From contig NZ_BBMP01000006.1 in NCBI RefSeq assembly GCF_000755245.1, forward strand, positions 186,001-250,000: a stretch of 64,000 nt of DNA. Direction: 5' to 3'. Shown here one piece after another: positions 41,182 to 64,000 of the stretch. The stretch comes from Halococcus sediminicola. GTDB taxonomy: Archaea; Halobacteriota; Halobacteria; Halobacteriales; Halococcaceae. A program made the translations under genes and the position numbers. Numbering within the stretch: position 1 is the stretch's first letter; each line of letters begins with the position of its first letter. Below the pieces are notes generated by a model. The model searched no databases and was not told the origin of the DNA. It saw only the letters and a program-made list of their open reading frames with translations.

Positions 41182-41214
41182 ATGAACGCCAGCGCACGCC
41201 CGCTCGACCAATGA
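41182..41214 (+). CDS. Possible 10-residue leader peptide coupled to the FemAB-like gene
   Basis: The ORF MNASARPLDQ ends in TGA that overlaps the next ATG as ATGA (41211-41214). It starts just after the predicted transcription start. The main gene has no Shine-Dalgarno sequence, so reinitiation after the leader could drive its translation. It may equally be chance. Confidence 0.3.
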   Translation: MNASARPLDQ

Positions 41215-42224
41215 GAGTCGAGCGGCTCGATTTCGAGACGTGGGAGGAGGGACTCCCCGAGCGTGGCTTCGAGGTCTTTCACACCTCCGAGGCGCTGTCG
41301 GTGCTCGACCGACACGCGCCCGGCGAGTGCTACCTTCTCGGGGGGTATCGCGGCGAGCAACTGGTGGCGATGGTACCGCTGTTCGTCCGGCACACGGGCG
41401 GGCTGCGCATCGTCTCCTCGCCGCCGCCCGGCATGGCCGTCCCCAACCTCGGCCCGCTCGTCATGCCGACCAGCCCGAAACAGCGCAAACGGGAGAAGGT
41501 GAACCGTGAGTTCACCGAGGAGCTTCTGGGGGTGCTCGACGCCGACGCGCCGCGGACGCTCGTTCGCCTCCTCTGTCCGCCCGACTACGCCGACCCGCGT
41601 CCCTATCGCTGGAACGGGCTGTCGGTCGAGCCAGCGTTCACCTACCGCCTCGCAGTCGACACCGACCCCGACGACCTCATGGACTCGTTCAGCCGCAGCC
41701 TCCGCCGGGAGATCCGTTCGGGGATGGATCTCGACATCGACATCGAGACGAGTGGTGTCGGGGGCGGCGAGACGGTCTTCCGTGAGACCGCCGAGCGCTA
41801 CGCCGAGCAGTCGGAGGCGTTCGGCCCGACGTGGCCCTACGTTCGGGACGTCATCGAGGAGCTGGGCGAGCGCAGTCGGGTGTATGTCGCCCGCGCCGAC
41901 GGCGAGTATCTGGGTGGGGTGATCGTGCTGTTCTCGAACGACGCGGCGTACTACTGGCTCGGCGGTGCGCGCGCGACCCACGAGAACGTCAGCATCAACA
42001 GCCTGCTCCACTGGCGGATCATCAACGACATCGCAGAGAACCCGCCCATCGATTCCGTGAACCAGTACGACCTCGTGGGCGCGAACACCGAACAGCTCTG
42101 TCGGTACAAATCGAAATTTGGTGGGGAGCTGACTCCGTACTACACCGTCGAATCGGGTGGAGTGGCGATGGACGCCGCGAAAGGTGCCTACGGGCTGGTC
42201 AACCGGGTCACGGAACGGCTCTAG
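41211..42224 (+). CDS. FemAB/GNAT-fold acyltransferase-like protein
   Basis: A 337-residue protein with two tandem GNAT-like halves as in FemAB peptidyltransferases and BioF2-type acetyltransferases. The second half carries RVYVARADGEYLGGVIVLF followed by AYYWLGGARATHENVSINSLLHW and YDLVGAN, the conserved order of the family; the first half ends in the LRREIRSG coiled segment. Such enzymes transfer amino acids from aminoacyl-tRNA or acyl groups from CoA to amino groups of cell-wall precursors. Archaea lack murein, so a glycan or protein amine would be the acceptor. Neighbours are DUF354 and surface-protein genes. Confidence 0.8.
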   Translation: MRVERLDFETWEEGLPERGFEVFHTSEALSVLDRHAPGECYLLGGYRGEQLVAMVPLFVRHTGGLRIVSSPPPGMAVPNLGPLVMPTSPKQRKREKVNREFTEELLGVLDADAPRTLVRLLCPPDYADPRPYRWNGLSVEPAFTYRLAVDTDPDDLMDSFSRSLRREIRSGMDLDIDIETSGVGGGETVFRETAERYAEQSEAFGPTWPYVRDVIEELGERSRVYVARADGEYLGGVIVLFSNDAAYYWLGGARATHENVSINSLLHWRIINDIAENPPIDSVNQYDLVGANTEQLCRYKSKFGGELTPYYTVESGGVAMDAAKGAYGLVNRVTERL

Positions 42225-43327
42225 CGCTCCGGCGTCGGCGGGTCGGGGCGTCGCGGTGGATCCTCGTGCGAGAGGCCCGCCACCGCATCGGCCCCGTCGG
42301 GGCTGGTGGCGAGTTCGACGATGACGTCGGTGAGGTTCACCTTGTCGGCCATGAACGCGTCGCGCTTTTCGGACCATTTCTCGGCGAGATCGTCGTCGGC
42401 GAGCAGCGATTCGGCGCGCTCGATAGCCTGCTCGAAGGAGGCGATGTTGAATATCAGTCCCTCGTCTTCGAGTTCGATGAAGTTGCCCATGTCCGCCTCG
42501 CCCACGAAGGAGTTCGACCGGATGGCGGGCGTCCCCAGGAGGGCGGCCTCGGTGACCATCGTCTGCGTGTCGGCCACGAGGAGGTGGGCCTCACTGAGTG
42601 CGTCGTGTAACAGTCCTGGGTGGAGGTCGAACGGGCGCGCGTCGATCCCCTCGAAATCCATACTGTGGCTCTCGTCGGAGATGAACACGGTCGCGTCGTC
42701 GGCGAGACGTTCGATGAGTTCGCGCCGCTCGGCCGGCCCGATGCCCGAGTGGCTGACGTCGTGATGCGAGCCGAAGGCGTTGAACCGACAGATGACGTAT
42801 TTTTCGTCCGGCGCGACGCCGAGCTGGTCGCGGATGTCCTCGCGGGCGGTGAACACGTCGGGGTGGAGGTACGCACACTCCTTGAACCCGCGAAAGCGGT
42901 AGTGATTCGGTCCCAGATCCTTGCCGAAGGCGGCCGGCGTGAGGATGGTGTCGGCGAACGGCCGCGAGACGGCGTGGTCGAGCGACGTCGGCTCCGAGTC
43001 GAGAATCAGCGTCACCGGCGTGCGCGAGAGCGCGCCCGCGTGGGCCGCGTACGCACCCATTCCGAAGATGCGGTCGGGCGAGTACCGCCGCGTCTGCCTG
43101 AGTATCGAGAGGTAGTGGCGAGGGAGCTGATACAGGAGCGAACGTTTTTCGGTCGCTAGCCGACCGTACAACCGGTACGGGAGGTCGTGGTAGTCGAGTA
43201 GTTCTTTCGTGCAGCCGTAATCCCGAGCGAGAATCAGCACCTCGTGACCGCGCTCGTCGAGAGCTGCGACGGCGTGTTTGTAGAGGTGGACGTGCGCAGG
43301 AGTGTTCGTAAAGAACAGATAGTTCAT
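42221..43327 (-). CDS. DUF354 family protein (glycosyltransferase-B-like fold)
   Basis: A 368-residue protein of the DUF354 group, relatives of non-hydrolysing UDP-GlcNAc 2-epimerase and GT-B enzymes. It opens with MNYLFFTNTPAHVHLYKHAV and ERGHEVLILARDYG, has HLLVADTQTMVTEAALLGTPAIRSN in the C-terminal nucleotide-binding half and a Pro-rich tail. Members occur in polysaccharide loci, but their reaction is not established. Convergent with the FemAB-like gene, overlapping by 4 nt. A second, divergent member is at 50516. Confidence 0.85.
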   Translation of the reverse strand: MNYLFFTNTPAHVHLYKHAVAALDERGHEVLILARDYGCTKELLDYHDLPYRLYGRLATEKRSLLYQLPRHYLSILRQTRRYSPDRIFGMGAYAAHAGALSRTPVTLILDSEPTSLDHAVSRPFADTILTPAAFGKDLGPNHYRFRGFKECAYLHPDVFTAREDIRDQLGVAPDEKYVICRFNAFGSHHDVSHSGIGPAERRELIERLADDATVFISDESHSMDFEGIDARPFDLHPGLLHDALSEAHLLVADTQTMVTEAALLGTPAIRSNSFVGEADMGNFIELEDEGLIFNIASFEQAIERAESLLADDDLAEKWSEKRDAFMADKVNLTDVIVELATSPDGADAVAGLSHEDPPRRPDPPTPER

Positions 43328-43567
43328 TCCGTCGTACTGGTAGCGACGAACTCGACGCTCCTAAACACGTCGGTCCACTCACCGTATCGTGTCGTTCGTT
43401 CCGTGGCACTTGCGCCGTCCTCGTCCGACGAGCCATCCGTGAGCGGTGTGTGACGCGGATTTCGGTGCGCTCACTCGTCCGTGGTTCGCTCGGGCGAAGC
43501 CGTTAGTCATATACGACCGGCCTGCGCCACTTGAAGCGATACGCTCACACGCTGTCGAACGAAACCC

Positions 43568-45013
43568 ATGACACGAACGATTCGAACCGCAGGGATGGTA
43601 CTGGTTGTATTGCTTTCGGCGGCCGTCGGCGGCGTCGCCCTCGGCGGAACGGCGGCCGCGCTCGACGAGGGCGCGGGCGCGACGTACCCGTTGACGCCCG
43701 GCTCGAACACGCTCGGCACGTTCGTCTACGTCGCCAGACCCGGCGATGCCGTGGCCGAAAACGGCATCAAGGAGATAACGCTCGACGTGAGCGAGGGCGC
43801 AAGCGTCGCCAACGTGACCGACGACGACGTGTTCATCGCGGTGCGTGGCGGCAAGCGCATCGAGATCGCCGAGAACAACAGCGATATCGTCGAGGTCTCG
43901 AACATCAGCGTCTCCTCGAATCAAGCCGGTGACGAACTCACCATCACGCTTCCGCGGCCGGTTCGCCCACGGTTCGCCTCGGACAGCCCGAACACCGGGG
44001 CCGAAATCGCCGTCAAGGTGGGGAACTTCACGACACCGAGCCAGCCGGGCACCTACCCGATAAACGGCACGCTCACCGACCCCTCGGGAACGACCGACGG
44101 ACCGGCGACGGTCACATACTCGGTGAGTTCACCGCAGATATCGATGGAAAATCAGGACCTCTCACAGTTCAGCGACCAGCAGACGCTCAACGTCTCGGCG
44201 GCGGTCCCGGGTGGCGGCTACGTCGGCGTGTTCACGAAAGCGCCGAACGGCTCACCCGGGAAACTCGTCGGTGCGACGAACGTCTCCACCACGCCGGCCG
44301 CACAGAACTACACCATCGACGTGGGCGGCAACGTCTCCGAGAGCCAGCAGCTCATGGCGGTCGCCTACACCGAGTCGTCGGGACGCTCCGCGGGCACCCG
44401 TGCGGGCGAATCATTCGACCCGAGCGCAGACCAGCCCCTCAGGGTCAACGGGACGCTCGTGAACGCGACGGCGAACGTCTCGACGCTCGACGTGGACGGA
44501 AAGGTCGAATCCGGTGGCGAGTACCCACAGGGTGCGCGGCTGTACTTCCCACAGGCCGAGTCGGGCACGAGCTATCAGGTCCGGTCGGTCGACGGAGGTG
44601 AACTCGGCTCCGCCGCGACACAGTTCCAGACGGGCGCGAACGGGACGACGGTCCTCGACACGAGCGACCTCTCGGAGGGACAGTACGCCATCACGCGTAT
44701 CGACGACGACTCGCTCGTGAGCCTCGACAACGACAGCACGACCGGTCCACAGGACGACAGCATCTTCATCACCGGCCAGCAACAGACCACGCAGGCCACC
44801 ACTCAGGCGAGCGGTACGGACGCCGCGACCGATGGCCAATCCGGTGGCGACGAAACGGCGGCTGGCGACGGGACGGACGCCGCAGCCGGCAACGACTCCG
44901 GGAACGGCAGCGGCTCGGACGACAGCAGTTCGTCCGGTCCCGGCTTCGGCATCGCCGTGGCCGTCGTCGCGTTGCTCGGCGCGGCGCTGCTCGCAACGCG
45001 GCGCGACCGCTGA
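43568..45013 (+). CDS. PGF-CTERM surface protein A
   Basis: A 481-residue secreted protein. A Sec signal peptide (MVLVVLLSAAVGGVALGGTAAA, given as VLVVLLSAAVGG then TAAA) precedes two beta-rich domains containing TYPLTPGSN and, later, SESQQLMAVAYTESS with FITGQQ. A Thr/Ser/Asp/Gly-rich O-glycosylation-type spacer leads to the PGF-CTERM sorting signal SGPGFGIAVAVVALLGAALL plus ATRRDR. Proteins with this signal are cleaved and lipid-attached by archaeosortase A. N-glycosylation sequons (N-x-S/T) are frequent. Tandem paralogue at 45249. A cell-surface structural or adhesive role is inferred. Confidence 0.9.
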   Translation: MTRTIRTAGMVLVVLLSAAVGGVALGGTAAALDEGAGATYPLTPGSNTLGTFVYVARPGDAVAENGIKEITLDVSEGASVANVTDDDVFIAVRGGKRIEIAENNSDIVEVSNISVSSNQAGDELTITLPRPVRPRFASDSPNTGAEIAVKVGNFTTPSQPGTYPINGTLTDPSGTTDGPATVTYSVSSPQISMENQDLSQFSDQQTLNVSAAVPGGGYVGVFTKAPNGSPGKLVGATNVSTTPAAQNYTIDVGGNVSESQQLMAVAYTESSGRSAGTRAGESFDPSADQPLRVNGTLVNATANVSTLDVDGKVESGGEYPQGARLYFPQAESGTSYQVRSVDGGELGSAATQFQTGANGTTVLDTSDLSEGQYAITRIDDDSLVSLDNDSTTGPQDDSIFITGQQQTTQATTQASGTDAATDGQSGGDETAAGDGTDAAAGNDSGNGSGSDDSSSSGPGFGIAVAVVALLGAALLATRRDR

Positions 45014-45248
45014 ATCGGCCGCTGTCGTCGTCACGAACGTCCGATTTTTCGCCGTTCCGACATCCGGGAACGGAGCCCGTAGTGGCTTGCGCTACCACGA
45101 CACATGGATGCGAACCGATAGAAATGAGTACGATGCGGCTGACAGCTACACCTACGAGGGAGCCATCCCGTGATCCGAGCGGCCGAAATCGGCCGTTGTA
45201 TCCGTCACGAGCGGCTCTCGGAGACCACACAATGAGGGATCTACAGCC

Positions 45249-46649
45249 ATGACGACGGCACGGCGCAGCGTATTCATGATTACCGTAGTGCTCGTTTCGG
45301 CACTCGTCGGCGGCATCGCCTTCACAGGATCGGCGGCAGCGCTCAACTCTGATACCGCGGCACCGTACCCGCACTCGCCCGGAACGAACGCGGCCGAGTT
45401 TCCCGTCTCGGTCGTCGCCCAGTCGAGCGACGCCATCACGCAAAACGGCATGAAGTCGATGACGCTCGACTTCGGTGCGAGCAGCGGGTTCGACGGGAGC
45501 GTCGGCAACGTCAGCGCGAGTTCGGCCTCGGTCATCGTCGCCAGCTCGGACGGGCAGCGGACGGTCGATCCCGCGAACGTCTCGACGACGCAGAACGGAC
45601 AGATCACGCTCACCTTCCAGCAGCCGGTGTCGGTCGGTGCCGGCGACCGCATCGTCGCCGACGTCCCGAACGTGACGACACCCTCGGCCGACGGGAGCTA
45701 CACGATCGGCGTCTCGGCGACGACGCCCTCGGGCACGACCGACGGTCCGGTGACCGACGACTACCGGGTCGCGAGCGCGTCGCTTTCGTTCCCGAACCAG
45801 AGCGCCTCGCAGTTCAGCGCGAACCAGTCGGTGAACGTCTCGGGCGTCATTCCGAACGCAGGCTACATCGGCGTGTTCACCGTCGCCGACAACGGCTCGC
45901 GCGGGGAGCTGGTCGGCAGCACCGAGCCCATCATCGCGCTGTACAACCAGCGCAACTACACCGTCAATCTCAACGGGAACGTCGACGAGAGCCAGCAGCT
46001 GATGGCCGTCGCCTACTACGAGACCAGCGGCGATACGCAGTCCGACCGGCTGAACGGCACGTTCGATCCGAACGAGGACGCCGTCGTGACGAACAACGGC
46101 CAGCCGGCGAACACGACCGGCTTCGTCACCACCGTCGACGCCGACGGGCGCGTCGAATCCGGCAGCGAGTACGACCAGGGGGCACGGCTCTACTTCGGAC
46201 AGGGCGAGCCGAGCACGGGCTATCAGCTCCAGACGGTCGAGAACGGCAGCGCCGGCCGCACCGTGACACAGTTCGAGACCGCCGCGAACGGCTCGGCCAC
46301 GCTCGATACCGGCGAACTGGAGCAGGGTCAGTACGTCGTCACGCGCATCGACGACGGCTCGGTGGTCAGCCTCGACAACGACAGCACGACCAGCCCACAG
46401 GACGACAGCATCTACATCACCGGCCAGCAGTTCACCGAGGCGACCGCCACGACCGGCAGTAGCGGCGGTGGCTCGAACGCCTCCGGTGACTCGAACGCGA
46501 GCGCCGGCAACGAAAGCGGCGCTGGCGACAACGGCTCCGGAAACGGCAGCGGTTCGGGCGACAGCAGTTCGTCCGGTCCCGGCTTCGGCATCGCCGTGGC
46601 CGTCGTCGCGCTGCTCGGCGCGGCGCTGCTCGCAACGCGGCGCGAGTAA
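45249..46649 (+). CDS. PGF-CTERM surface protein B (tandem paralogue)
   Basis: A 466-residue homologue of the preceding protein: the same order of signal peptide (VVLVSALVGGIAFTGSAAA), a first beta domain with PYPHSPGTN, a second domain with SQQLMAVAYYETSG and IYITGQQ, an Asn/Gly/Ser-rich spacer and the same PGF-CTERM tail. The first domains have diverged while the 3' ends are nearly identical in DNA. The spacer SGDSSSSGPG resembles that of protein A. The pair probably forms or decorates the cell surface and is a candidate acceptor or anchor for the locus' glycan. Confidence 0.9.
   Translation: MTTARRSVFMITVVLVSALVGGIAFTGSAAALNSDTAAPYPHSPGTNAAEFPVSVVAQSSDAITQNGMKSMTLDFGASSGFDGSVGNVSASSASVIVASSDGQRTVDPANVSTTQNGQITLTFQQPVSVGAGDRIVADVPNVTTPSADGSYTIGVSATTPSGTTDGPVTDDYRVASASLSFPNQSASQFSANQSVNVSGVIPNAGYIGVFTVADNGSRGELVGSTEPIIALYNQRNYTVNLNGNVDESQQLMAVAYYETSGDTQSDRLNGTFDPNEDAVVTNNGQPANTTGFVTTVDADGRVESGSEYDQGARLYFGQGEPSTGYQLQTVENGSAGRTVTQFETAANGSATLDTGELEQGQYVVTRIDDGSVVSLDNDSTTSPQDDSIYITGQQFTEATATTGSSGGGSNASGDSNASAGNESGAGDNGSGNGSGSGDSSSSGPGFGIAVAVVALLGAALLATRRE
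46560..46645 (+). repeat. 86-bp near-perfect copy of 44921-45006
   Basis: The 3' coding ends of the two PGF-CTERM genes are identical over 86 bp except for one T/C difference (GTTGCTC against GCTGCTC). A second similar block is at 44727-44781 and 46375-46429. Such identity between otherwise diverged paralogues points to gene conversion or strong selection on the sorting signal. Confidence 0.9.
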
Positions 46650-48136: not shown

Positions 48137-49251
48137 CCGACGGGACGACCGTGACCATCGTGCTCGGCACGCGCCCGGAGATCATCAAGCTCGCGCCCGT
48201 CATCGACGCCTGCGAAGAACGAGGGATCGCCTACAGCGTCGTCCACACCGGCCAGCACTACTCCGAGGAGCTGGATACGGTCTTTTTCGACCAGCTCGAA
48301 CTGCCGACGCCCGACCACAACCTCGGCGTCGGCTCCGGTTCCCAGAGCGAGCAGACCGGCGCGATGATCCCCGCCATTGAAGCTGTCCTGCTCGACGAGC
48401 AGCCCGAGCTCGTCCTCGTCCAGGGCGACACGAACTCCGTGCTCGCGGGGGCCATCGCCGCGAGCAAGCTCGAGTGCGAAGTGGGCCACGTCGAGGCCGG
48501 CCTGCGCAGTTTCGACAGAAGCATGCCCGAAGAAGTCAATCGCGTGCTCGCCGATCACGCCGCCGACTACCTCTTCGCGCCGACCGAACAGGCCGCAAAC
48601 TATCTCCACGAGGAGGGTATCCCCGACGAGCGCGTCCATATCACTGGCAACACCATCGTCGACTCGGTGATGGGCTACCGCGACCTCGCGGCCGAGAAGA
48701 GCGCTGTCCTCGACGAACTCGGTCTCGACGCCGGCGAGTTCTGTCTCCTGACTGCCCACCGCGCCGAGAACGTCGACGACCGTGAGCGCTTCGAGAGCCT
48801 GCTCGACGGCGTGGCACGCTTCGCCCGTGAATCGGATCTCGACGTCGTCTATCCGGTCCATCCGCGCGCTGCGGAGCGCCTCGCTGCGTTCGACATCGGG
48901 ATGCCAGCGGAGATCACGCCCATCGACTCGCAGGACTTCCTCGATTTCCTCCGGCTCGAAAGCACGGCCACGCTGGTCCTCACCGACTCCGGGGGTGTCC
49001 AGGAGGAGACCTGCATCCTCGGTACGCCCTGTGTCACCCTTCGGGACAACACCGAGCGGCCCGAGACGGTCGATGTCGGTGCGAACCGCGTCATCGGCAT
49101 CGGTCCCGAGAGCATCGTCGCCGGGGCGCGCGAAGCGCTCGACAGCCCGAACGATTGGGAGAACCCCTTCGGCGACGGGCGGAGCGCCGAGCGGATCCTC
49201 GACATCGCGAATCTCGGGCCGACCACGTCGGTCGAGGAGGTGTGCGGATGA
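48133..49251 (+). CDS. wecB: UDP-N-acetylglucosamine 2-epimerase (non-hydrolysing)
   Basis: A 372-residue GT-B-fold enzyme converting UDP-GlcNAc to UDP-ManNAc. The N terminus has VLGTRPEIIKLAPVI, and the conserved active-site segments HTGQHY, GDTNSVLAG, HVEAGLRS, LTAHRAENVD and TDSGGVQEET are all present in the usual order. It feeds UDP-ManNAc to the dehydrogenase encoded next, whose ATG overlaps its stop by 4 nt. Product of the pair is UDP-ManNAcA, a uronic acid donor for surface polysaccharide. Confidence 0.96.
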   Translation: MTDGTTVTIVLGTRPEIIKLAPVIDACEERGIAYSVVHTGQHYSEELDTVFFDQLELPTPDHNLGVGSGSQSEQTGAMIPAIEAVLLDEQPELVLVQGDTNSVLAGAIAASKLECEVGHVEAGLRSFDRSMPEEVNRVLADHAADYLFAPTEQAANYLHEEGIPDERVHITGNTIVDSVMGYRDLAAEKSAVLDELGLDAGEFCLLTAHRAENVDDRERFESLLDGVARFARESDLDVVYPVHPRAAERLAAFDIGMPAEITPIDSQDFLDFLRLESTATLVLTDSGGVQEETCILGTPCVTLRDNTERPETVDVGANRVIGIGPESIVAGAREALDSPNDWENPFGDGRSAERILDIANLGPTTSVEEVCG

Positions 49252-50519
49252 GTTCGGTCTGTGTTCACGGGCTGGGCTACATCGGTCTACCGACGGCGGC
49301 GATGCTCGCCAACAGTGGCCACGATGTCACCGGCTACGACGTCGATGCGGACCTGCTCGACCGGCTCGACAGCGGCGACGTTCCCGTCGACGAACCGGGT
49401 CTCGGCGAGTTCGTCACCGACGCGCTCGCGGGGAGTCTGTCGGTCTCGGACGAGGTGCCACCCGCCGACTACCACCTCGTCTGTGTGCCGACGCCGCTCG
49501 ACGGCGACCGTGCAGATCTCGCCTTCGTCGAGAGCGCCGCCGAGGCGGTCGCCGAGGTGCTCCGGGCGAACGACACGGTGATCCTCGAGTCCACAGTGCC
49601 GCCGGGGACCACGGTCGAGACGGTCGCACCGATTCTCGAAACCTCGGGGCTGTCGGTCGGCGAGTTCTCGCTCGCGTATTCGCCCGAGACGGTGCTTCCG
49701 GGGAGCGTCATCGCTGAACTGCGCGCGAACGACCGCGCGGTCGGCGGCATCGACGAGCGGTCGGTCGAGCGCGCGGCGGCACTTTATGATTCCTTCGTCG
49801 AGGGCACACTCAGGAAGACGGCGAACCCGACGCTCGCGGAGTTCGTCAAACTCATCCAGAACACCTACCGCGACGTGAACATCGCGCTCGCCAACGAGCT
49901 GGCGATGATCGCCGCCGACTACGACCTCGACTCGCGCGAGGCAATCGCGCTGGCGAACCACCACCCCCGGGTAAACCTCCACCAGCCGGGACCCGGTGTG
50001 GGCGGTCACTGCATCCCCATCGACCCGCTGTTTTTGGGGCAAGACTCCCAAAAAATTGACCTCATCGAGCGCGCCCGCGCGATCAACGACGGGATGGCCG
50101 AGTACGTCACCGACCTGCTGGAGAGCCATCTCGATTCGCTCGCCGACTCCTCGGTAGCGGTCCTCGGCGTCGCCTACAAGGGCAACGTCGCCGACGCGCG
50201 CGAGAGTCCGGGCCTGCGCCTCGCGGAAGTGCTCCAGACCCGGACGCAGGTGGCGGGAGCCACCGGAACGAGCGAGGCGGGCGTCGACGTGCGCCTCACC
50301 GATCCACACGTGGCCGACCAGCGGTTCGCGCTCGCGCCCCTCGACGAGGCGCTTTCGGGGGCGGACGCGATCGTCATCGCCACCGACCACGACGAATACA
50401 CCGAACTGGACCCTGTCGAAATCGCAGCGCAACTCGACGGAGATGTCGTCATCGATGCGAAAGGACTGCTCGACGCCGCCGCGTGGGAGGCGGCCGGACT
50501 GCAGGTCGTCCGGCTATGA
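49248..50519 (+). CDS. wecC: UDP-N-acetyl-D-mannosamine dehydrogenase
   Basis: A 423-residue NAD-dependent four-electron dehydrogenase oxidising UDP-ManNAc to UDP-ManNAcA. The Rossmann motif is HGLGYIGLPTA (7-17), the catalytic lysine region is AEFVKLIQNTYRDVNIA (K201) and the nucleophile is C255 in GVGGHCIPIDP. The C-terminal domain has VLGVAYKGNVADARESP. Family members also oxidise other UDP-HexNAc, so the product is UDP-ManNAcA by context with wecB. It overlaps both neighbours by 4 nt. Confidence 0.95.
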   Translation: MSSVCVHGLGYIGLPTAAMLANSGHDVTGYDVDADLLDRLDSGDVPVDEPGLGEFVTDALAGSLSVSDEVPPADYHLVCVPTPLDGDRADLAFVESAAEAVAEVLRANDTVILESTVPPGTTVETVAPILETSGLSVGEFSLAYSPETVLPGSVIAELRANDRAVGGIDERSVERAAALYDSFVEGTLRKTANPTLAEFVKLIQNTYRDVNIALANELAMIAADYDLDSREAIALANHHPRVNLHQPGPGVGGHCIPIDPLFLGQDSQKIDLIERARAINDGMAEYVTDLLESHLDSLADSSVAVLGVAYKGNVADARESPGLRLAEVLQTRTQVAGATGTSEAGVDVRLTDPHVADQRFALAPLDEALSGADAIVIATDHDEYTELDPVEIAAQLDGDVVIDAKGLLDAAAWEAAGLQVVRL

Positions 50520-51613
50520 GCGGTCACGGGGAGCACGCCGCGAGCACGCCCGCCGCACGAACGCGGCCGGTGCGGGCGTGGATCGACCTCGTGAGTCCGT
50601 CCCACCCCTTCTTTTTCGCGGCACTCGCCAAACGGCTCGACGGGGTTGCGGTGGCGACCACGGTCAGAGAGAAAACCGAGACCGTCTCGCTCGCCCGCGA
50701 GGTGGGGTTCACCCACCGCGTCGTCGGCCGGGATTTCGACAACTCGTTGGTCAGAAAGGTCGGTATTCCGCTCCGAACCGCACAGCTGGCCATCGAGGCG
50801 CCCGACTGCGACGTGTCGCTGTCTTCGCGCAACGCGATGTGCGTGCTTGCCTCCAAGGTTCGAGGGATTCCCTCGATACACTTCACGGACAACGACATCA
50901 CCGCTCACATCGACGGTCTCTGGGTCGAAGAACTGTATAATCGCTTCGAGGCCGCCGCGACCCACAACGTCGTGCCGCGGGCGTTCGCGACCGAGGAACT
51001 CACGCGGTGGGGCGCGGATGCCGATTCGATACACACCTACGACGGCTACAAAGAGGACGTCTACGTCGCCAACTTCGAGCCGGATTCGACCTTTCCCGAC
51101 CAGCTCCCGTTCGCGAGCGGCGAGTACATCGTCGTGCGCCCGGAGGCGCTGACGGCGGCGTACGTCGACGCCGATTCCATCGTACCCGACCTGCTCGCGG
51201 CGGCCACGGAGCGCGACATCGGCGTCGTCTATCTCCCGCGCGGGCGCGGCGACGAAACGCACGCCCACGACTACCCGGAGAGCGCGGTGTACGTTCCGGA
51301 TGGGGCGGTCAACGGGTTGCAACTGGCGTGGCACGCCCGCTGTGTGCTCACCGGTTCGGGAACGATGTCTCGCGAGGCAGCCTGCATGGAGAAGCCCGCG
51401 GTATCGTTCTTCCCGAACACCCTCTTATCGGTCGATCAGGAACTCGTCGCCGACGGGCGCATCTTCCACTCGCGAGATCCCGTGAAGATAATCGAACACA
51501 TCGCCGCGCTCGACGAAAGCGACGTCGCGCCTGACCGTGAGCGCGCGCGTGCGGTGCGCGACGAGGTCGTCGAACTCACGGGTGAACTGATTCGGTTGTG
51601 TGGGGAGCGATGA
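50516..51613 (+). CDS. DUF354 family protein in the wec operon
   Basis: A 365-residue relative of the DUF354 protein at 42221, with RAWIDLVSPSHPFFFAALAK at the N terminus, SIHFTDNDITAH in the middle and LTGSGTMSREAACMEKPAVS in the C-terminal nucleotide-binding half. It overlaps wecC and the downstream toroid gene by 4 nt each, placing it firmly in UDP-ManNAcA metabolism. A sugar-nucleotide-binding transferase or epimerase role is plausible; activity is unknown. Confidence 0.85.
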   Translation: MSGHGEHAASTPAARTRPVRAWIDLVSPSHPFFFAALAKRLDGVAVATTVREKTETVSLAREVGFTHRVVGRDFDNSLVRKVGIPLRTAQLAIEAPDCDVSLSSRNAMCVLASKVRGIPSIHFTDNDITAHIDGLWVEELYNRFEAAATHNVVPRAFATEELTRWGADADSIHTYDGYKEDVYVANFEPDSTFPDQLPFASGEYIVVRPEALTAAYVDADSIVPDLLAAATERDIGVVYLPRGRGDETHAHDYPESAVYVPDGAVNGLQLAWHARCVLTGSGTMSREAACMEKPAVSFFPNTLLSVDQELVADGRIFHSRDPVKIIEHIAALDESDVAPDRERARAVRDEVVELTGELIRLCGER

Positions 51614-52854: not shown

Positions 52855-54630
52855 ATGACCGGTGTTCTCGGCGGGACGGTCACTGGCGAACCGTTCCGGG
52901 CGATGACGGAGGCGATACAGTTCGAGCCGTGGTACGAGACCGAGCGCTTCGAGGAGGGCGAGTCGAGTCTCGGTCTCGTTCACCACGGCGAGCGCGACCC
53001 GCTCGGCAGCGCCGCGTGGGAGGGCGAGAGTCGCGCGGGCGTCGTCCACGGCGCGCTCGTCGGCCGCGAACACACCAATACAGAAAATCTCGTCGAGCGC
53101 GTTCTCGATTCCCCCCACGAGACGCTCCGCGAAGTGGACGGCCCGTTCGCGCTTGCGTGTGTGGATTTCGACGCCGAACGGTTCGTGTTGGCGACGGATA
53201 AACTCGGCACGCGGCCGTGTTATTACACGCTCGAAAACGGACTGGCGTTCGGCTCGTCGGTGGCCGCGCTGCTCACCGGTCTCGACGACCCGCAACTGGA
53301 CGAACAGGGCGTGAGCGACCTGCTCATGATGAGCGGTCTCTGGGGCGAGCGGACGCTCGTCGAGGGCGTGCGCGCGCTCGCACCCGCGTCGGTCCTCGAA
53401 TACGAAGATGGTGAGGCCTCGATCGAGCGCTACTGGAAACCCGACTACGAGAGCGCGCCGACCGACGGCTACATCGACGACCTCGTCGACGTCTTCGGGG
53501 CGGCGATGGCCGATGCGGCGACCACGATGGACGGCGACGTGGGCGTGTGGCTCTCCGGTGGACTCGACAGCCGAACGCTGGCGGCCGAACTCGCCGGCCA
53601 TAGCGACGAGTTCGACTCCTTTCGCGCCTACACCTACGACGCGAACCCCCGCGGCGGCGGCAACCCCGAACTCGCCGCCGACATCGCCGACCGCCTCGAC
53701 ATGGGCTTTTCGGAGGTCGAGATCTCACCCGACCGGTTCGTGCCGATCCTCGACGACGCCATCGACCGGACCGACGGAATGGTCGGCTGGGCAACGCTGT
53801 TGCCGCTGTCGGCGACCTACAACCTGCCCGAGGCCAACGCCGACGTGATGCTCGAAGGCGCTGGCCAAGGTGGACTGATGGGCCATCACGTCCGGCGTCG
53901 CCACATCGAGCGGTGCGATTCGGCGGTCGATTCGCTATACCGGAGCGAAGCCGGTGCGAGCCGCGAGCGCGTGCGCTCGCTCATGACGACCGATGTCGAT
54001 CCGCTCGATTCGTTCCGAGAGACCGTCGCGGGGAGCGACGAGACACAGCGAAAGAAGGTGATCCTCGACGCCCACTTCGCCAACCACTACGGGCGCGGCG
54101 AGTACGCGAGCACGCGCCTCGCACAGACGAAGACCGGCGTGCGCGCGCCCATCGTCCACGGCGACCTCATCCAGCACGCCGCCCGCCTCCCCACCACCTA
54201 CCGAATGGGCACAATCCCGCTGACGAACGGCTACGTCCCGCACGGGGTGACGAAACCGAAACTCGCGCTGACGCGGGCAGCGGGAAAGGGGATGGGCGAC
54301 GTGCGCTACGAGCGCACCGGCGTCGCGCCCAAGCACTCCTATCCGGTCCACGTCGGCGGGTTCGTGGCGACGACCTCGCTGGGACGCCTGCGCTCGTCGA
54401 CCACCTACGGTGGCCAGCGCCTGCCCGACATCTGGTATCGACGCCACGACAGCCTGCGCGATCGCCTCGACGACTTGCTCGCCGGCGCGTGCGAGCGATC
54501 CTTTCTCAATGGCGACGAGATACGACGCCTGCGGCGCGAGCACCTCGCGGGCGAGGCAAACCACATGTCGGGCGTGCTCTCGCCGGTCACGACGCTCGAA
54601 TCGTGGCTTCGGCGACATCTCGACCCCTGA
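52855..54630 (+). CDS. Asparagine synthase-like amidotransferase lacking the glutaminase cysteine
   Basis: A 591-residue AsnB-type protein. The C-terminal PP-loop motif SGGLDSR (234-240) is intact, so it can probably adenylylate a carboxylate with ATP. The N-terminal class II glutaminase domain is degenerate: the second residue is threonine (MTGVLGG) where the catalytic cysteine of MCGI is required. The enzyme would therefore need another amine donor, such as ammonia or an amino sugar. In glycan loci AsnB relatives amidate uronic acids. It lies 51 nt after the wec operon and is followed by a GT4 gene. Confidence 0.85.
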   Translation: MTGVLGGTVTGEPFRAMTEAIQFEPWYETERFEEGESSLGLVHHGERDPLGSAAWEGESRAGVVHGALVGREHTNTENLVERVLDSPHETLREVDGPFALACVDFDAERFVLATDKLGTRPCYYTLENGLAFGSSVAALLTGLDDPQLDEQGVSDLLMMSGLWGERTLVEGVRALAPASVLEYEDGEASIERYWKPDYESAPTDGYIDDLVDVFGAAMADAATTMDGDVGVWLSGGLDSRTLAAELAGHSDEFDSFRAYTYDANPRGGGNPELAADIADRLDMGFSEVEISPDRFVPILDDAIDRTDGMVGWATLLPLSATYNLPEANADVMLEGAGQGGLMGHHVRRRHIERCDSAVDSLYRSEAGASRERVRSLMTTDVDPLDSFRETVAGSDETQRKKVILDAHFANHYGRGEYASTRLAQTKTGVRAPIVHGDLIQHAARLPTTYRMGTIPLTNGYVPHGVTKPKLALTRAAGKGMGDVRYERTGVAPKHSYPVHVGGFVATTSLGRLRSSTTYGGQRLPDIWYRRHDSLRDRLDDLLAGACERSFLNGDEIRRLRREHLAGEANHMSGVLSPVTTLESWLRRHLDP

Positions 54631-55753: not shown

Positions 55754-55761
55754 GACGTGAG

Positions 55762-55791: not shown

Positions 55792-56943
55792 ATGAAACTC
55801 GGCGGAGTCCGCGACGGCACGGTGTACGTCACGCGCGGACTCGACATCGGAACGTGGAGTGCGGAGGAGGGATTTCTGACCGTTGGCTCGTTGCCGAACC
55901 CGGAATCCGGCAGCGATGGACTCCGCTTCGATGCGATGAACCGATGGCTACCCAAACGACTGCTTCGGCCGATAACCGGGCTGTACACGACCGCGAACGT
56001 CTGGCCGCTCGGCGACGACTGCCTGCTGGCGACGGTCTCGCGGTGGCTGTTTCGCTCGGCGGATGGGGGGCGCTCGTGGACGCTCGTCCGCGAACTCCCC
56101 GACTCGTCGGGACCGATGGGCGTGCTCCCGACGGCGGTCCGCGAACACCGCGGCCGCGTCTATCTCGCCGAATACCCGCTCGGCGACGACCCGGCCCGCG
56201 TGCTCGTGAGTGACGACCGCGGGCGCACGTGGTCGCCGTTCGTCGAACGACCCGACGTGCGTCACTTCCACGGGCTGTTCGTCGACCCCTACACCGACCG
56301 GCTCTGGGCCACAACGGGCGACACGAACGACGAGAGTGCAATCGGCGTCCTCTCCGAGGAGGGGTTCGCGCCGATCGGGCGCGGCAGCCAGCGCTGGCGG
56401 GCCGTGGGGCTTGCCTTCGGATCGGAGGCCGTCTTCTGGGGCAAGGATTCCTCGTACACCGAACGAGCCGAAGTCCTGCGCCTATCGCGCGAATCCCTCG
56501 ACGACCCCGACCCCACACCGGAGACGATCGCGACGACCGCCTGTCCCATTTATTATGCCGAAACACTCGACAGGCCCGACGAACACTGGCTCGTCGTCTC
56601 GACGACCTCCACGGGGAGAATCGACAGCACCGCTCCCGACGGACAGAAACGAAACACCTGCGATGGGGTCGCCAGAGTGCTCGCGGCCTCCTCGGCCTCG
56701 GGGTACGAGACGTGGTACGAACTCTACGCAACCGAGCGCCGTGACGCGGTCGGCGAGCGTGTCGACGCGATACCGGCCTCGAACGGCTATCTGTTTCTGG
56801 CGACCGACCCAGAGCACGGACTGCTCATCAATCCCTACAACACAACCGACGACAACGGCGACATCGTCGCGATCACACCCGCTGCATTCGACGAGGCGGA
56901 CTTCGCCAGCTATACCGATTCGCGCACGGAGGTACGCCCATGA
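55792..56943 (+). CDS. Beta-propeller protein with Asp-box motifs
   Basis: A 383-residue protein without a signal peptide. Asp-box blades are seen at RSADGGRSWTLV and VSDDRGRTWSPF, and more degenerate repeats follow, including RHFHGLFVDPYTDRLWATTG. Six or seven blades fit the length. The C-terminal third contains YYAETLDRPDEHWLVVS. A sialidase-like catalytic triad is not obvious. The gene overlaps the formyltransferase-like gene by 4 nt, so the two proteins probably act on the same substrate. Confidence 0.78.
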   Translation: MKLGGVRDGTVYVTRGLDIGTWSAEEGFLTVGSLPNPESGSDGLRFDAMNRWLPKRLLRPITGLYTTANVWPLGDDCLLATVSRWLFRSADGGRSWTLVRELPDSSGPMGVLPTAVREHRGRVYLAEYPLGDDPARVLVSDDRGRTWSPFVERPDVRHFHGLFVDPYTDRLWATTGDTNDESAIGVLSEEGFAPIGRGSQRWRAVGLAFGSEAVFWGKDSSYTERAEVLRLSRESLDDPDPTPETIATTACPIYYAETLDRPDEHWLVVSTTSTGRIDSTAPDGQKRNTCDGVARVLAASSASGYETWYELYATERRDAVGERVDAIPASNGYLFLATDPEHGLLINPYNTTDDNGDIVAITPAAFDEADFASYTDSRTEVRP

Positions 56944-57818
56944 GCGAACGCATGCGCGTCGGCGTACTGGCGAACCCGATGCTCACGCGCTTCGAGGAGC
57001 AGGCACTCGAAAACGTCGCCGCGCTCGATAGAGTGAGTATCGAAGAAGTCGTCGTCGACGGCTCGGTCGCGGAGGGATCGGCGCTCGCGGCGGGAGCCGA
57101 TGCCGTCAATCAGGGTACCAGTATCTCGCCGAGCGACCTCAAACTGTTCGTCGAGGTCGTCCGCGAGAGCGGGCTGAAGGCGTTCATCCACGGCGACGAG
57201 AAACTCGGCTGGCTACTCGGCGAGACCGAACAGATGGAGTGGCTCCAGTCGGGACCGGTCACCGAGGTCGACTGTCTCGACGGGGCGACGGTTCGGGAGT
57301 GCGAACCGGTGTCGGCGGGTGGGCCGTGGAACACGCTGCCCGAGGATACGACGACGGACCTCGGCGAGTCCTGTGACGTGGTGATCCGATTTGGGTTCGG
57401 TCTACTCAAAGGGCCGATTCTCGACGCGCCGGAACACGGCGTTCTCAGTGTGCATACGAGCGACATCCGCGAGTATCGCGGGATGGGTCACAAGATCTCG
57501 TTCATGAACGACGACTCATCCGTATCGATCACGCTCCAGCAGCTCTCCGAGGAGATCGACGGCGGGCGCATCGTCGCGGTCATGTCACGTGACCTGCCTT
57601 CGGAGCCGACCCTCGACGACGTGTGGGATGGGGTGTATGCGCTCCAGACCGAGATCTTCGCCGACGGCATCGAGCGGCTTCAGGATGGATTCGAGCCGTT
57701 CCAGCCCGAGGAATTGGGACCGTACTACCCACACAGCCTCCAGCAGCACAATCCGCGCTTCGTCGCCCGGCTACTGGCGAAGAACAACTGGCGACGGCTG
57801 CGAAAGCGGCTGTCGTGA
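56940..57818 (+). CDS. Formyltransferase-family protein
   Basis: A 292-residue protein related to methionyl-tRNA and sugar N-formyltransferases. The catalytic region reads LSVHTSDIREYRGMG (169-183), in which H172 fits the essential histidine, but the asparagine expected two residues earlier is S170. An aspartate follows at 191/192 in FMNDDSSVSIT, and SEEIDGGRI matches the family's downstream segment. Sugar formyltransferases modify amino groups of dTDP- or UDP-amino sugars. It is translationally coupled to the propeller gene. Active formylation is not assured given the substitution. Confidence 0.8.
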   Translation: MSERMRVGVLANPMLTRFEEQALENVAALDRVSIEEVVVDGSVAEGSALAAGADAVNQGTSISPSDLKLFVEVVRESGLKAFIHGDEKLGWLLGETEQMEWLQSGPVTEVDCLDGATVRECEPVSAGGPWNTLPEDTTTDLGESCDVVIRFGFGLLKGPILDAPEHGVLSVHTSDIREYRGMGHKISFMNDDSSVSITLQQLSEEIDGGRIVAVMSRDLPSEPTLDDVWDGVYALQTEIFADGIERLQDGFEPFQPEELGPYYPHSLQQHNPRFVARLLAKNNWRRLRKRLS

Positions 57819-57864: not shown

Positions 57865-58806
57865 TCAGCCGAGATAGCCGAGGTCTTCGAGGCGGTCGGT
57901 GACGACGCTTTCCTCGACGGCCATGTCCTGGGGCCCGGTCTCGTCGCCACGCACACAGGTCTCGGGTTCCTCGGCGACGACCTTCCGGCGCGGACCGTTG
58001 GTGTAGGTGAGCCACGGCACCGAGAGGAGTTCGTCGGTGTAGATGCCCGGCGGGTGACCGTACTCGCGGAGGGGGATGGGAAACGAGCGCTCGCCGAGCA
58101 TCTGGCCGTGGTCGGCGGTGACGACCGTCTTGCCTTCGATACTTTCCATGAGGTCCCGGACGTGGGGCAACACCGCGTCGAGGTTCTCGACGAACGCCTT
58201 GCGATAGACGCTGTCGGGGAGGTCGAGGTCGTTGCTGTCGATGGCGTCCCACACCCGGAGACTGTTGAGTTCGGGGTATTCGTGGCCGGTCGGGCCGATA
58301 GCCGGGAAGTGTGGCTGGACGAAGTGGACGAGCAATCGCTTGTCGGGATACTGCTCGGCGGCCGCCTTGGCGCGTTCGACCATCGTTTCCGGGCGAACAG
58401 TGTGAAACTCGTCGTCCCAGCCCTCGTCCTGCCAGACGTTGATCTCGGCGTGGAAGGTCGCGTCGACGTCGCCGCGGTTGCGATTCCAGTAGAACATCGG
58501 GGTCGCCGTGACATAGACCGTGTCGTGCATCTCGCGGCCGTCGAAGTTCGCCTTCAGGAACTCGGCGGTCATCGACCCGCGCGAGCGCCGCCGTTCGAGG
58601 GTTCCGGGCAGGTCCGAACGCGCCGCGAAGGCGTCGTACCGGCAGGCATCCAGAATCACCAACGTGTCCCAGTCTTCGGCGACGATGTCGACGCCGTCGG
58701 GGTTGTACGCGCGCCGGTTCAGTCGGGTGTGATAGAGCCGGTTCAGCTCGCGGACGAGCAGTCGCGGTTGGTCGAGAGCGCGCCGCAACTGGCGGAGATC
58801 GTACAT
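57865..58806 (-). CDS. Alkaline-phosphatase-superfamily (sulfatase-like) protein
   Basis: A 313-residue member of the phosphatase/sulfatase superfamily. Metal-binding motifs are VILDACRYDAF (first Asp and adjacent Cys, about 50-60) and the late VVTADHGQMLGER (Asp-His). RLLVHFVQPHFP gives a further histidine. The C in LDAC may be the nucleophile position that is formylglycine in sulfatases, but the surrounding C-x-P-x-R is absent. It may transfer or remove phosphate, phosphoethanolamine-like groups or sulfate on glycans. Last in the minus-strand group. Confidence 0.8.
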   Translation of the reverse strand: MYDLRQLRRALDQPRLLVRELNRLYHTRLNRRAYNPDGVDIVAEDWDTLVILDACRYDAFAARSDLPGTLERRRSRGSMTAEFLKANFDGREMHDTVYVTATPMFYWNRNRGDVDATFHAEINVWQDEGWDDEFHTVRPETMVERAKAAAEQYPDKRLLVHFVQPHFPAIGPTGHEYPELNSLRVWDAIDSNDLDLPDSVYRKAFVENLDAVLPHVRDLMESIEGKTVVTADHGQMLGERSFPIPLREYGHPPGIYTDELLSVPWLTYTNGPRRKVVAEEPETCVRGDETGPQDMAVEESVVTDRLEDLGYLG

Positions 58807-58860
58807 GGTTCGACAATCGCTCAAACGAGGCAAAAGCCCTCCGAACCCGCTCCACGTAAC

Positions 58861-60027
58861 TCACTCGCCCGGAACGATACCGTGGCGCTCGTAAAAGCGC
58901 CTGACTCGGCGGTCGTCGAGCAGCGGGCCGTGGACCTGAAAGAACCGGATGTTCGGTGCGTTGTTCCCCTCGATGACGGTGAACTCGCCCTCCTCGGTCA
59001 CCACGAGATCCCAGCCGATGTAGGGGGTATGCGAGAAGGTCGCGGCCATTTCGAGGAGTTGCTCCCGAATCGCCGGCCAGCCCGGAACTGTCGTGCCCGT
59101 GATCCGCGCGCCCGTATCGGGATGAGTCTCGTGCCAGTCGAGGCTTCCCGAGAAGGGGAACTGGAAGCCGGCGGTCAGGCGGCCGGTTTCGGGGTCGACG
59201 CCCGCTGCGAGACCGCCGTTCGTGAAGTTGTCCACCGGGGCCGACCGACGAGTGCCGATCCGATGGGCGGCCGCTGCGATAAACGGCTCGCCCCGCTGGT
59301 CGTCGTACATCGTGAGCACCCGGAGCGTGTTCGCCGCGTCGGGGAACAGCTCGGCGGCGTAGGCGGCCTGTTCGACGACTTCGGAGACGAGATAGCCGTC
59401 GAGACCGTCGACGACCGATTCGAAGTCGTCTCTGGGACGCTCCTCGCCGTCGATGCGATACTGGCCGTCGGCGTACGAACAGCGCGTGACGCCCATGCCG
59501 CCGCTGCCCCGCCACGGCTTCAGCATGAGCGCCCCCTCTTCGCGCAGGCGCTCGGTGATCCACGTGGCCGCGTCGGTGGTTCCGTGTTCGCCCGTCATCA
59601 CCACGTCGCCGCCGTCCGCTTCGAGCGAGCGGAGGTCGTGAAAGCGCCCGCGTTTGAGCACCCCATAAGTTTCGACACGCTGGTCGGCGAACGGCTCCAG
59701 CATCCAGTGGAAGAACAGTTTGTTGTTGAGCGCCTCCCGCTGTTCGTCGTTGATCCAGTAGGCGCGTTCGCGCTGGAAATCCGAGAAATACTGGTGATAG
59801 TTGGTCTCGTCGACGTTGTAGAACACGTCGGCCTGACTCAGAAAGCCGTGTCGCCAGAGCCAGAGCCGCCGGCGGATGGGCATCGACAGCCACGCCTTCT
59901 CCCACGTCAGCACCTCCTTTTCGGCGAAACGCCTGTATTCGGTCAGTACCCGCCGCGCGCCGCGCCGGGTTCTATCCAACAGCCGATGCGAGCCACGGAG
60001 CAGACCGACGAGTCGCTCGGAATTCAC
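58861..60027 (-). CDS. Sugar-transfer-associated ATP-grasp protein 1
   Basis: A 388-residue ATP-grasp protein of the type found in polysaccharide loci. Shared family segments are MPIRRRLWLWRHGFLSQADV in the N-terminal domain, a glycine-rich nucleotide loop MLKPWRGSGGMGV, the metal region NTLRVLTM with AAAHRIGT and a C-terminal YIGWDLVVTEEGEFTVIEGN. ATP-grasp enzymes ligate a carboxylate to an amine or thiol through an acyl phosphate, but the products of this subfamily are unknown. Two paralogues are encoded at 61739 and 62984. Confidence 0.87.
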   Translation of the reverse strand: MNSERLVGLLRGSHRLLDRTRRGARRVLTEYRRFAEKEVLTWEKAWLSMPIRRRLWLWRHGFLSQADVFYNVDETNYHQYFSDFQRERAYWINDEQREALNNKLFFHWMLEPFADQRVETYGVLKRGRFHDLRSLEADGGDVVMTGEHGTTDAATWITERLREEGALMLKPWRGSGGMGVTRCSYADGQYRIDGEERPRDDFESVVDGLDGYLVSEVVEQAAYAAELFPDAANTLRVLTMYDDQRGEPFIAAAAHRIGTRRSAPVDNFTNGGLAAGVDPETGRLTAGFQFPFSGSLDWHETHPDTGARITGTTVPGWPAIREQLLEMAATFSHTPYIGWDLVVTEEGEFTVIEGNNAPNIRFFQVHGPLLDDRRVRRFYERHGIVPGE

Positions 60028-62878: not shown

Positions 62879-62983
62879 CCTTCGAAAGGAACACGGCCGA
62901 GGATTAAGGCCGTTCGTTCCCACTGCGAACGACTGACCGACCCGCTTCGTGGCGGTTATCACGGCGCGTCATATAGCCAATCC

Positions 62984-64000
62984 ATGAACGGCGATCGGGC
63001 CTACGGGCTGGCGAAGGCGGCGTATCGAGGCGTCACGGGCGAGTACGCGACCCGTGCGTCGCGGCTGGCCACGCGGCTCAAACGCTTCGCCAAGAGCGAG
63101 GTCTCGACGTGGCGCTCGCCGGTCTCGATGCCCATCCGTCGGCGGCTCTGGCTCTGGCGGCATGGATTCTTGAGTTCGGCGGACGTGCTGTACGACCTCG
63201 ACGACGACAACTACCGGCGCTATCTCTCCTCCTATCAGCGCGAACGCGCGGCGTGGCTCAACGGCAAGCGCAGCGTCGCCTTCGACAACAAACTCCTCTT
63301 TCACTGGATGACCGAACCGTTCGACGACCAGCGCGTCGAAACCGACGGATTGCTCAGGGACGGCCGCTTTCACGATCTTCGCTCGCTGCGGTCGGACGAC
63401 GAATCCGACCGCACGCCCGGCACCGCCGACGCCGCCGCGTGGGTCGTCGAACGGCTACGTGAGGATGGGTCGCTGGTCCTCAAGCCCGTCACCGGCGGCG
63501 GTGGCAAGGACGTCCGGCTCTGTTCGTATTCCAATGGGAGCTATCGCGTCAACGGCGAGGCGTACACCGAGACCGAATTTCGGGAACTGGTCACGGGTCT
63601 CGACGAGTATCTCGTCACCGAGCGGGTCGAGCAGGCCGCCTACGCGGACACCCTCTACCCCGACGCGGCCAACACCCTCCGGGTGCTGACCATCTACGAC
63701 GACGAAGCCGACGAGCCGTATCTCGCCGGCGTCGTCCACCGAATTGGTACTGAACGCTCCGCGCCGCTCGACAACCTCGTCCGCGGTGGGCTGGTCGCCG
63801 ACGTCGACCGTGATACTGGCGAACTCGGAGAGGCCGTCCGCTACCTCGGTGCCGAACAGCTCGTCCGCTATGAGACTCATCCCGACACGGGCGCGCAGAT
63901 TGCGGGCACCACAGTACCGCACTGGCCGGCCGTCCGCGAGCAACTCCTCGAAATGGCCGCGGCCTTCTCACACGCCCCGTATATCGGTTGGGACGTCATC
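62984..64000 (+). CDS. Sugar-transfer-associated ATP-grasp protein 3 (3' end beyond window)
   Basis: The open frame runs from the ATG at 62984 off the window edge: 339 residues are visible and about 40 more are expected. It matches paralogues 1 and 2 throughout: MPIRRRLWLWRHGFLSSADV, SLVLKPVTGGGGKDVRL (glycine-rich loop intact), NTLRVLTIYDDEADEPYLAG, HRIGTERSAPLDN and YIGWDVI at the edge. It is divergent from paralogue 2, with a short shared promoter region containing CATATAG at 62970-62976. Confidence 0.88.
   Translation, partial: MNGDRAYGLAKAAYRGVTGEYATRASRLATRLKRFAKSEVSTWRSPVSMPIRRRLWLWRHGFLSSADVLYDLDDDNYRRYLSSYQRERAAWLNGKRSVAFDNKLLFHWMTEPFDDQRVETDGLLRDGRFHDLRSLRSDDESDRTPGTADAAAWVVERLREDGSLVLKPVTGGGGKDVRLCSYSNGSYRVNGEAYTETEFRELVTGLDEYLVTERVEQAAYADTLYPDAANTLRVLTIYDDEADEPYLAGVVHRIGTERSAPLDNLVRGGLVADVDRDTGELGEAVRYLGAEQLVRYETHPDTGAQIAGTTVPHWPAVREQLLEMAAAFSHAPYIGWDVI

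Follow-up and report, generated by a model that had tools for sequence, protein, structure and literature searches.

A conserved envelope-glycan locus in Halococcus with a FemAB-like protein as candidate aminoacyl transferase

We analyzed a 64,000-nucleotide stretch of the Halococcus sediminicola genome (the window; G000:C6:186001-250000 of a 3.76-Mb genome, hereafter G000), in which the last 23 kb encode a surface-glycan locus that begins with the FemAB-like protein FemAB1. The Halococcus wall is one of the few rigid archaeal walls, and its chemistry has been known since the 1970s. We read the block as half of an envelope-glycan super-locus in which FemAB1 takes the VimA role in a Wbp/Vim-type pathway, while cassettes vary the decoration of the glycan; we assign this reading a probability of about 0.5. 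The glycan locus is real and conserved. An earlier note, made from the sequence alone, had proposed a surface glycan decorated through amides. That idea is strengthened for FemAB1, which its VimE/Wbp neighborhood ties to a known pathway for glycine or serine amides, and weakened with regard to formyl transfer and to one combined pathway.

We infer the reactions, and the amino acid transferred, from gene families and their conserved neighborhood. At the core, WecB and WecC would make uridine diphosphate-N-acetylmannosaminuronic acid (UDP-ManNAcA), which toroid enzymes, DUF354 proteins, and glycosyltransferases (GTs) of the GT4 and GT2 types would modify and polymerize; two PGF-CTERM surface proteins are encoded alongside. 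WbpA/B/E/D(/I)-like enzymes would produce UDP-2,3-diacetamido-uronic acid, from which a VimE-like deacetylase would free the 2-amino group. FemAB1 (or its paralogue FemAB2) may then amide-link an amino acid, by analogy glycine or serine, to the freed group. Optionally, an AsnB-like cassette could amidate the carboxyl group using ammonia or an amine donor, and an amino acid or peptide could be placed on it by the three ATP-grasp ligases, which come with a flippase of their own.

FemAB1 and its Wbp/Vim-like neighborhood

41211..42224, + strand: FemAB1, GNAT/FemAB-like, proposed VimA-type aminoacyl transferase; PF13480 (Acetyltransf_6), 66 bits

FemAB1 was found in all 18 Halococcaceae examined, and roughly half of the Halobacteria sampled have FemAB1-type proteins. 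For 20 other haloarchaeal genomes, none of which was chosen for the link, we fetched the approximately 20 kb that surround FemAB1. A VimE homologue lies no more than 6 kb from FemAB1 in 19 of the 20 genomes and at 7.3 kb in the remaining one. Most of the fetched stretches also contain wbpA- and wbpD-like genes, and the usual neighbors of the pair are wbpA/B/D/E-like. All 11 VimE homologues compared with 18,950 NCBIfam models matched NF053580 (VimE) and no other model (best E 2.5e-18), and the HDVD motif is invariant in these proteins.

The Wbp/Vim set is contiguous with the window core in five Halococcaceae (G001, G002, G005, G007, and G014, the last from a sister genus of Halococcus), where FemAB1 is beside VimE or a few kb from it. 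In the clade formed by G000, G004, and G009, these two parts are separated. Specifically, the window genome has a second cluster on contig C26 (G000:C26:233086-244813; L061:1087-12814) with a complete Wbp-like set. Its homologues of WbpA, WbpB, WbpE, WbpD, and WbpI are a nucleotide-sugar dehydrogenase (TIGR03026, 333 bits), a UDP-GlcNAc 3-dehydrogenase-like protein (NF040723, 228 bits, under the cut-off), a DegT aminotransferase (417 bits), a hexapeptide acetyltransferase (90 bits), and a 2-epimerase (TIGR00236, 319 bits). Also encoded are a GT2, a flippase, a phosphodiesterase-family protein, FemAB2, and a 296-residue VimE homologue, the VimE-like deacetylase. This cluster is likely the other half of the window locus.

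FemAB1 is probably a VimA-like aminoacyl transferase, as judged from context and distant homology. This assignment draws on the conserved VimE/Wbp neighborhood, on a match to TIGR03019 that is shared with VimA, a FemAB-superfamily protein (PMC7468200), and that is weakly present in 13 of 18 members of the FemAB family here, and on a relation to FemX. The last, a lipid II:glycine glycyltransferase (6snr, E 1.2e-6), is the sole PDB relative of the FemAB1 family profile. The linking sugar of Porphyromonas gingivalis was deduced to be 2-N-seryl-3-N-acetylglucuronamide (Veith et al., PMC7468200), and WbpS is required for its amide. Tannerella forsythia VimA expressed in P. gingivalis switches serine to glycine; VimA decides which of the two is placed on the 2-amino group of the sugar (PMC7468200). 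A term search of that paper found no occurrence of the word "archaea".

Alternatively, FemAB1 may be a plain N-acyltransferase that re-acylates the amino sugar with acetate or a short acyl group, in a locus for an ordinary acidic exopolysaccharide or N-glycan that carries no amino acids. Consistent with this, Acetyltransf_6 is its top Pfam match and its score with Pfam FemAB (PF02388), 18.7 bits, is under the gathering cut-off of 24. Uronic-acid-rich haloarchaeal exopolysaccharides also exist: AepG of Haloarcula hispanica is needed for glucuronic acid in an acidic exopolysaccharide (PMC9943897). However, a dedicated deacetylase beside an enzyme that does no more than restore the acetyl group would be futile, an argument similar to one made for VimE and VimA (PMC7468200), and the only PDB relative of the profile transfers glycine. 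We consider a plain acyltransferase unlikely.

A conserved core with exchangeable cassettes

42221..43327, - strand: DUF354a, GT-B-like, core; PF04007, 42 bits; same place in G001, G003, G004, G005, G009, and G014
43568..45013, + strand: PGFa, secreted, carries a PGF-CTERM sorting signal, core; PF18204 and PF23951; N- and C-terminal hydrophobic segments
45249..46649, + strand: PGFb, second PGF-CTERM surface protein, core; PF18204 and PF23951
46708..47910, + strand: TOR1, (alpha/alpha)6-toroid carbohydrate-enzyme-like, cytosolic, core; homologue of TOR2; no transmembrane or signal segment
48133..49251, + strand: WecB, UDP-GlcNAc 2-epimerase; TIGR00236, 395.7 bits, cut-off 210
49248..50519, + strand: WecC, nucleotide-sugar dehydrogenase; TIGR03026, 380 bits, subfamily above cut-off
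50516..51613, + strand: DUF354b, GT-B-like; PF04007, 83 bits; overlaps of a few bases with WecC and TOR2
51610..52803, + strand: TOR2, (alpha/alpha)6-toroid, core; AlphaFold2 model

All families listed in the earlier note (wecBC, one GT4, a flippase, and the FemAB-like, AsnB-like, formyltransferase-like, and three ATP-grasp proteins) are present as intact reading frames in the 41.2-64 kb block. That inventory omitted the two DUF354 proteins and the two alpha/alpha-toroid proteins, which are part of the locus. The locus continues about 14 kb past the window, to approximately window coordinate 78000. Five more GTs (three GT4, two GT2) are encoded in this extension, together with a sulfatase, a multi-pass membrane protein, a protein of the phosphodiesterase family, a methyltransferase-domain protein with a long C-terminal part that has no Pfam match, and a Gfo/Idh oxidoreductase. 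Near its end, contig C6 contains a Nextera sequencing adapter-like sequence (L006:8987-9020), an assembly artefact. Elsewhere in the window, G+C drops to 0.57-0.62 at 21000-30000, compared with about 0.66 in the rest, which suggests acquired DNA.

The locus has two layers, a conserved core and patchy cassettes located between TOR2 and the sulfatase gene x64149. The core comprises FemAB1, DUF354a, PGFa, PGFb, TOR1, WecB, WecC, DUF354b, and TOR2, along with AlkP-type proteins and glycosyltransferases encoded downstream, and it is present in all Halococcus genomes mapped. For this mapping, we called genes in fetched loci by amino-acid log-odds, with the locus as training set, and mapped orthologues by BLAST. 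The order from FemAB1 to TOR2, with the downstream x64149-x65741-x67842-x69506, is kept in G001, G002, G004, G005, G007, and G009, a few genes being unseen in one genome or another or beyond the fetched stretch. A contig end at WecB interrupts the locus in G003, and G014 retains most of the core order. WecC orthologues back the same core for G006 and, as fragments, for G008; they are full-length (75-86%) in seven other Halococcus genomes, and no close one was found in fragmented G003.

Except for FemAB1, the amide genes of the earlier note belong to optional cassettes: the AsnB-like gene; the GT4, BNR, and formyltransferase-like genes; and three ATP-grasp genes with a flippase. The interval from TOR2 to x64149 is empty in G001, G005, and G007, holds GT4a-BNR-FMT-Wzx in G004 and BNR-FMT in G009, and contains all of the cassettes in G000. 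Among 10 Halococcus genomes, AsnB-like genes occur in 6, formyltransferase-like genes in 6 (one a weaker match), and strong ATP-grasp matches in 5, each with its own distribution. These units are exchangeable cassettes that move separately.

We measured co-location across 242 Halobacteria genomes, counting a pair as linked when no more than 25 kb apart; the counts assume independent genomes, and some are related, so significance is overstated. FemAB1 and a toroid gene share a genome in 51 cases (26 expected) and are linked in 47 (about 1 expected). The AsnB-like gene is linked to FemAB1 in 10 genomes and to a toroid gene in 12, with fewer than 0.5 expected for each. Because these linked counts far exceed expectation, the grouping of FemAB1, toroid, and AsnB-like genes is not due to chance. 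Formyltransferase-like genes are near FemAB1 in 6 genomes, and ATP-grasp genes only in G000, G085, and G190, the latter two from one other family.

These data bear on the proposal that all of the amide-related proteins act on one glycan, yielding formyl groups, uronamides, and amino-acid amides in a single integrated pathway. In its favor, the genes lie within 23 kb. The earlier note would have counted single, scattered orthologues against it; FemAB1, toroid, AsnB-like, and ATP-grasp genes are instead found within about 20 kb of each other in G085 and G190 as well, and the AsnB-like gene co-locates with FemAB1. Against it, G000 is the sole sampled genome in which the listed families all fall within 25 kb, the three cassettes have separate distributions in Halococcus, the formyltransferase-like protein lacks its catalytic Asn, and the ATP-grasp-flippase unit is on another contig in G009. 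Such an integrated pathway is quite improbable.

Core enzymes and the Halococcus wall

WecC probably converts UDP-ManNAc to UDP-ManNAcA: UDP-ManNAc dehydrogenase models are its top equivalogs, yet score below their cut-offs (NF040825, 358 bits versus 750). The tandem PGF-CTERM proteins (window 43568-46649) recall the sorted proteins encoded beside exopolysaccharide genes in bacterial PEP-CTERM systems.

TOR1 and TOR2 match no Pfam family above cut-off and have no secretion signal. The AlphaFold2 model of TOR2, built without deep alignments (mean pLDDT 69, pTM 0.77), adopts a toroid fold, with VIA-align Z-scores of 25.9 for GH76 (4v1s), 25.2 for cellobiose 2-epimerase (3wkf), and 22.9 for unsaturated glucuronyl hydrolase (3wiw); the best match covers 311 residues with an rmsd of 3.5. 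Canonical C5-epimerases did not appear in this match list, an absence that does not eliminate them.

Reported constituents of the H. morrhuae wall include gulosaminuronic acid (110 nmol/mg), glycine (100 nmol/mg), and N-glycyl-glucosaminyl bridges (PMC4187196, citing Steber and Schleifer); N-glycyl-glucosamine in Halococcus walls was also the precedent named in the earlier note. A 2026 Halococcus genome paper also describes wall chemistry (PMC13321033); a search of it for the terms glycosyl and polysaccharide found no occurrence. No gene for wall N-glycyl-glucosamine is assigned in the literature consulted.

The core could direct synthesis of the rigid, sulfated polymer of the Halococcus wall, with toroids turning ManNAcA into its C5 epimer, gulosaminuronic acid. 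This is compatible with FemAB1 as a VimA partner. In its favor, the core is present in all Halococcus genomes mapped, gulosaminuronic acid is reported from the H. morrhuae wall, and C5-epim_C is matched weakly by 6 of 25 toroid proteins. As a weak idea, the toroids are candidate makers of gulosaminuronic acid because the canonical C5-epimerase domain (PF06662) was not found in any of 10 Halococcus genomes. A true C5-epimerase was not borne out for the toroids by profile tests: TOR2 scores 14.9 bits with PF06662 (D-glucuronyl C5-epimerase; cut-off 23.3), and the profile comparison, which points toward it, is weak (hhalign E 1e-4, probability 58%). The fold is closest to 2-epimerases, GH76, and GH88-type enzymes, no sulfotransferase was recognized in the locus, and many other haloarchaeal families have toroid and FemAB1 genes, all of which count against this possibility. 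We regard it as somewhat unlikely.

More broadly, a wall-specific signature was sought and rejected, in that FemAB1, toroid, AsnB-like, formyltransferase-like, and ATP-grasp genes all occur across many haloarchaeal families. The comparison of gene content that the earlier note had suggested thus yields no mark of walled genera. Since most of these families are not known for such walls, we offer the link between locus and wall, including wall N-glycyl-glucosamine, as a hypothesis.

Optional cassettes

52855..54630, + strand: AsnB-like synthetase, Thr2 in place of Cys2, optional cassette; PF00733, 60 bits
54683..55753, + strand: GT4 glycosyltransferase, optional cassette; PF00534, 97 bits
55750..56943, + strand: BNR/Asp-box protein, optional cassette; PF13088, 25.7 bits, below cut-off
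56940..57818, + strand: formyltransferase-like, S-x-H in place of N-x-H, optional cassette; PF00551, 25.0 bits, cut-off 26.1
57865..58833, - strand: sulfatase/AlkP-like, optional cassette; PF00884, 16 bits (under cut-off); other glycan loci carry homologues
58861..60027, - strand: ATPgrasp_ST 1; PF14397, 127 bits
60068..61615, - strand: Wzx-type flippase with 12 transmembrane-like segments, between ATP-grasp 1 and 2; PF01943, 77 bits
61739..62878, - strand: ATPgrasp_ST 2; PF14397, 118 bits
62984..64000, + strand: ATPgrasp_ST 3, truncated at the window edge (full frame to 64142); PF14397, 103 bits over the portion inside the window

The closest named match of the AsnB-like protein is from Halococcus thailandensis JCM 13552 (82% identity); together with the presence of this locus in sampled congeners, the match places the genome in Halococcus. 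Position 2 is Thr, or in some Ser or Pro, and Cys in none of 16 aligned homologues; with Cys2 replaced throughout, use of glutamine is not expected. The SGGLDS ATP-binding loop (S234-S239) is invariant in the same 16. Its nearest relatives in the PDB are a hydroxyamidotransferase and asparagine synthetases, and beta-lactam synthetase was also matched. Among the window protein (52855-52863) and 15 homologues, most have in place of Cys an N-terminal Thr that Met removal would expose, a conceivable Ntn nucleophile.

The formyltransferase-like protein is related in fold to methionyl-tRNA formyltransferase, the NVH of 4iqf aligning with S170-x-H172. The catalytic N-x-H is absent in 7 of 7 homologues, whereas H172 and D207 are kept in all 7; formyl transfer is doubtful because Ser170 replaces the catalytic Asn. 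The BNR gene adjoins this gene in G000, G001, G004, and G009.

All three ATP-grasp proteins exceed the PF14397 cut-off of 31.4, and the third frame is complete in the contig sequence past the window (L005). Most keep the catalytic Lys and the acidic-Asn pair. The order ATPgrasp1-Wzx-ATPgrasp2-ATPgrasp3 recurs on G009:C49, a contig other than that of the core locus. AlphaFold2 models of three sequences, built without deep alignments, reached pLDDT 60 and pTM 0.46; Foldseek matched them with low TM-scores mostly to ATP-grasp enzymes, peptide ligases and carboxylases alike, and a PDB profile search gave zero matches. In another haloarchaeal family, G213:C1:687000-694000 (L081) has four closely spaced ATPgrasp_ST genes in the vicinity of a flippase-like gene.

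Weighing the pathway and its implications

Several points weigh against FemAB1 as the VimA partner in an envelope pathway. FemAB1 and VimE are on different contigs in the window genome. The matches fall far short of equivalog cut-offs, both for the Halococcus VimE homologue (NF053580, 49.9 versus 440 bits) and for TIGR03019 (26.7 versus 260 bits), and FemAB1 could transfer an ordinary acyl group. Ordinary asparagine synthase models give the AsnB-like protein better scores than the WbpS-type family TIGR03108 does. FemAB1-type proteins occur in about half of the Halobacteria sampled, and since most of these are not known to have such a wall, the sugar made by the Wbp/Vim set may be something other than a wall component. 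N-glycyl-glucosamine is not a uronic acid, and wall glycine in H. salifodinae is low (7 nmol/mg; PMC4187196).

If the Wbp/Vim reading of FemAB1 is correct, FemAB-like genes in about half of sampled haloarchaea would gain a specific, testable function, and a periodontal-bacterial pathway that joins proteins to surface glycans would also be an old and widespread haloarchaeal trait, with bearing on the anchoring of sorted archaeal surface proteins. The link would make the origin of N-glycyl-glucosamine in Halococcus walls testable, and the locus names a small set of genes for this: femAB1, femAB2, vimE, wecC, tor1, and tor2. More speculatively, a class-wide haloarchaeal pathway with FemAB1 might make an aminoacyl-capped amino-uronic linking sugar; in Halococcus this chemistry would yield the N-glycyl amino sugar, bridging wall strands or tethering PGF-CTERM proteins. 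The tandem ATP-grasp ligases and flippase might then extend the uronic carboxyl group with amino acids or a short peptide, giving a peptide-decorated wall glycan without Mur-type ligases. We judge this extended scenario improbable.

Comparison with known systems

The closest parallel is the Wbp/Vim system of P. gingivalis and T. forsythia (PMC7468200). It shares WbpA, WbpB, WbpE, WbpD, and WbpI-like enzymes, a VimE-like deacetylase, an adjoining FemAB-superfamily transferase, an AsnB-type protein (in some genomes), and C-terminally sorted surface proteins in the region. The haloarchaeal set differs in being archaeal, in its distant relation to VimE and VimA, in an AsnB-like protein without the Cys, and in extra toroid, DUF354, and ATP-grasp genes. 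Bacterial XrtA/PEP-CTERM exopolysaccharide loci likewise combine FemAB-like (TIGR03019) and AsnB-like (TIGR03108) proteins with sorted surface proteins; scores here are far below both equivalog cut-offs, and PGF-CTERM takes the place of PEP-CTERM.

The H. morrhuae wall (PMC4187196) comes from the same genus, has glycine amide-bound to an amino sugar, and contains an aminouronic acid that could derive from ManNAcA; it is known by chemistry, with no genes assigned in the literature consulted. In Methanococcus voltae, the N-glycan contains ManNAcA6Thr beside diacetamido-glucuronic acid (PMC2952790), an archaeal ManNAcA with an amino acid at position 6; for the M. maripaludis glycan, a related structure, that 2010 review names no threonine-attaching enzyme. 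In ManNAcA6Thr the amino acid is carried on the carboxyl group, rather than on the 2-amino group as proposed for FemAB1.

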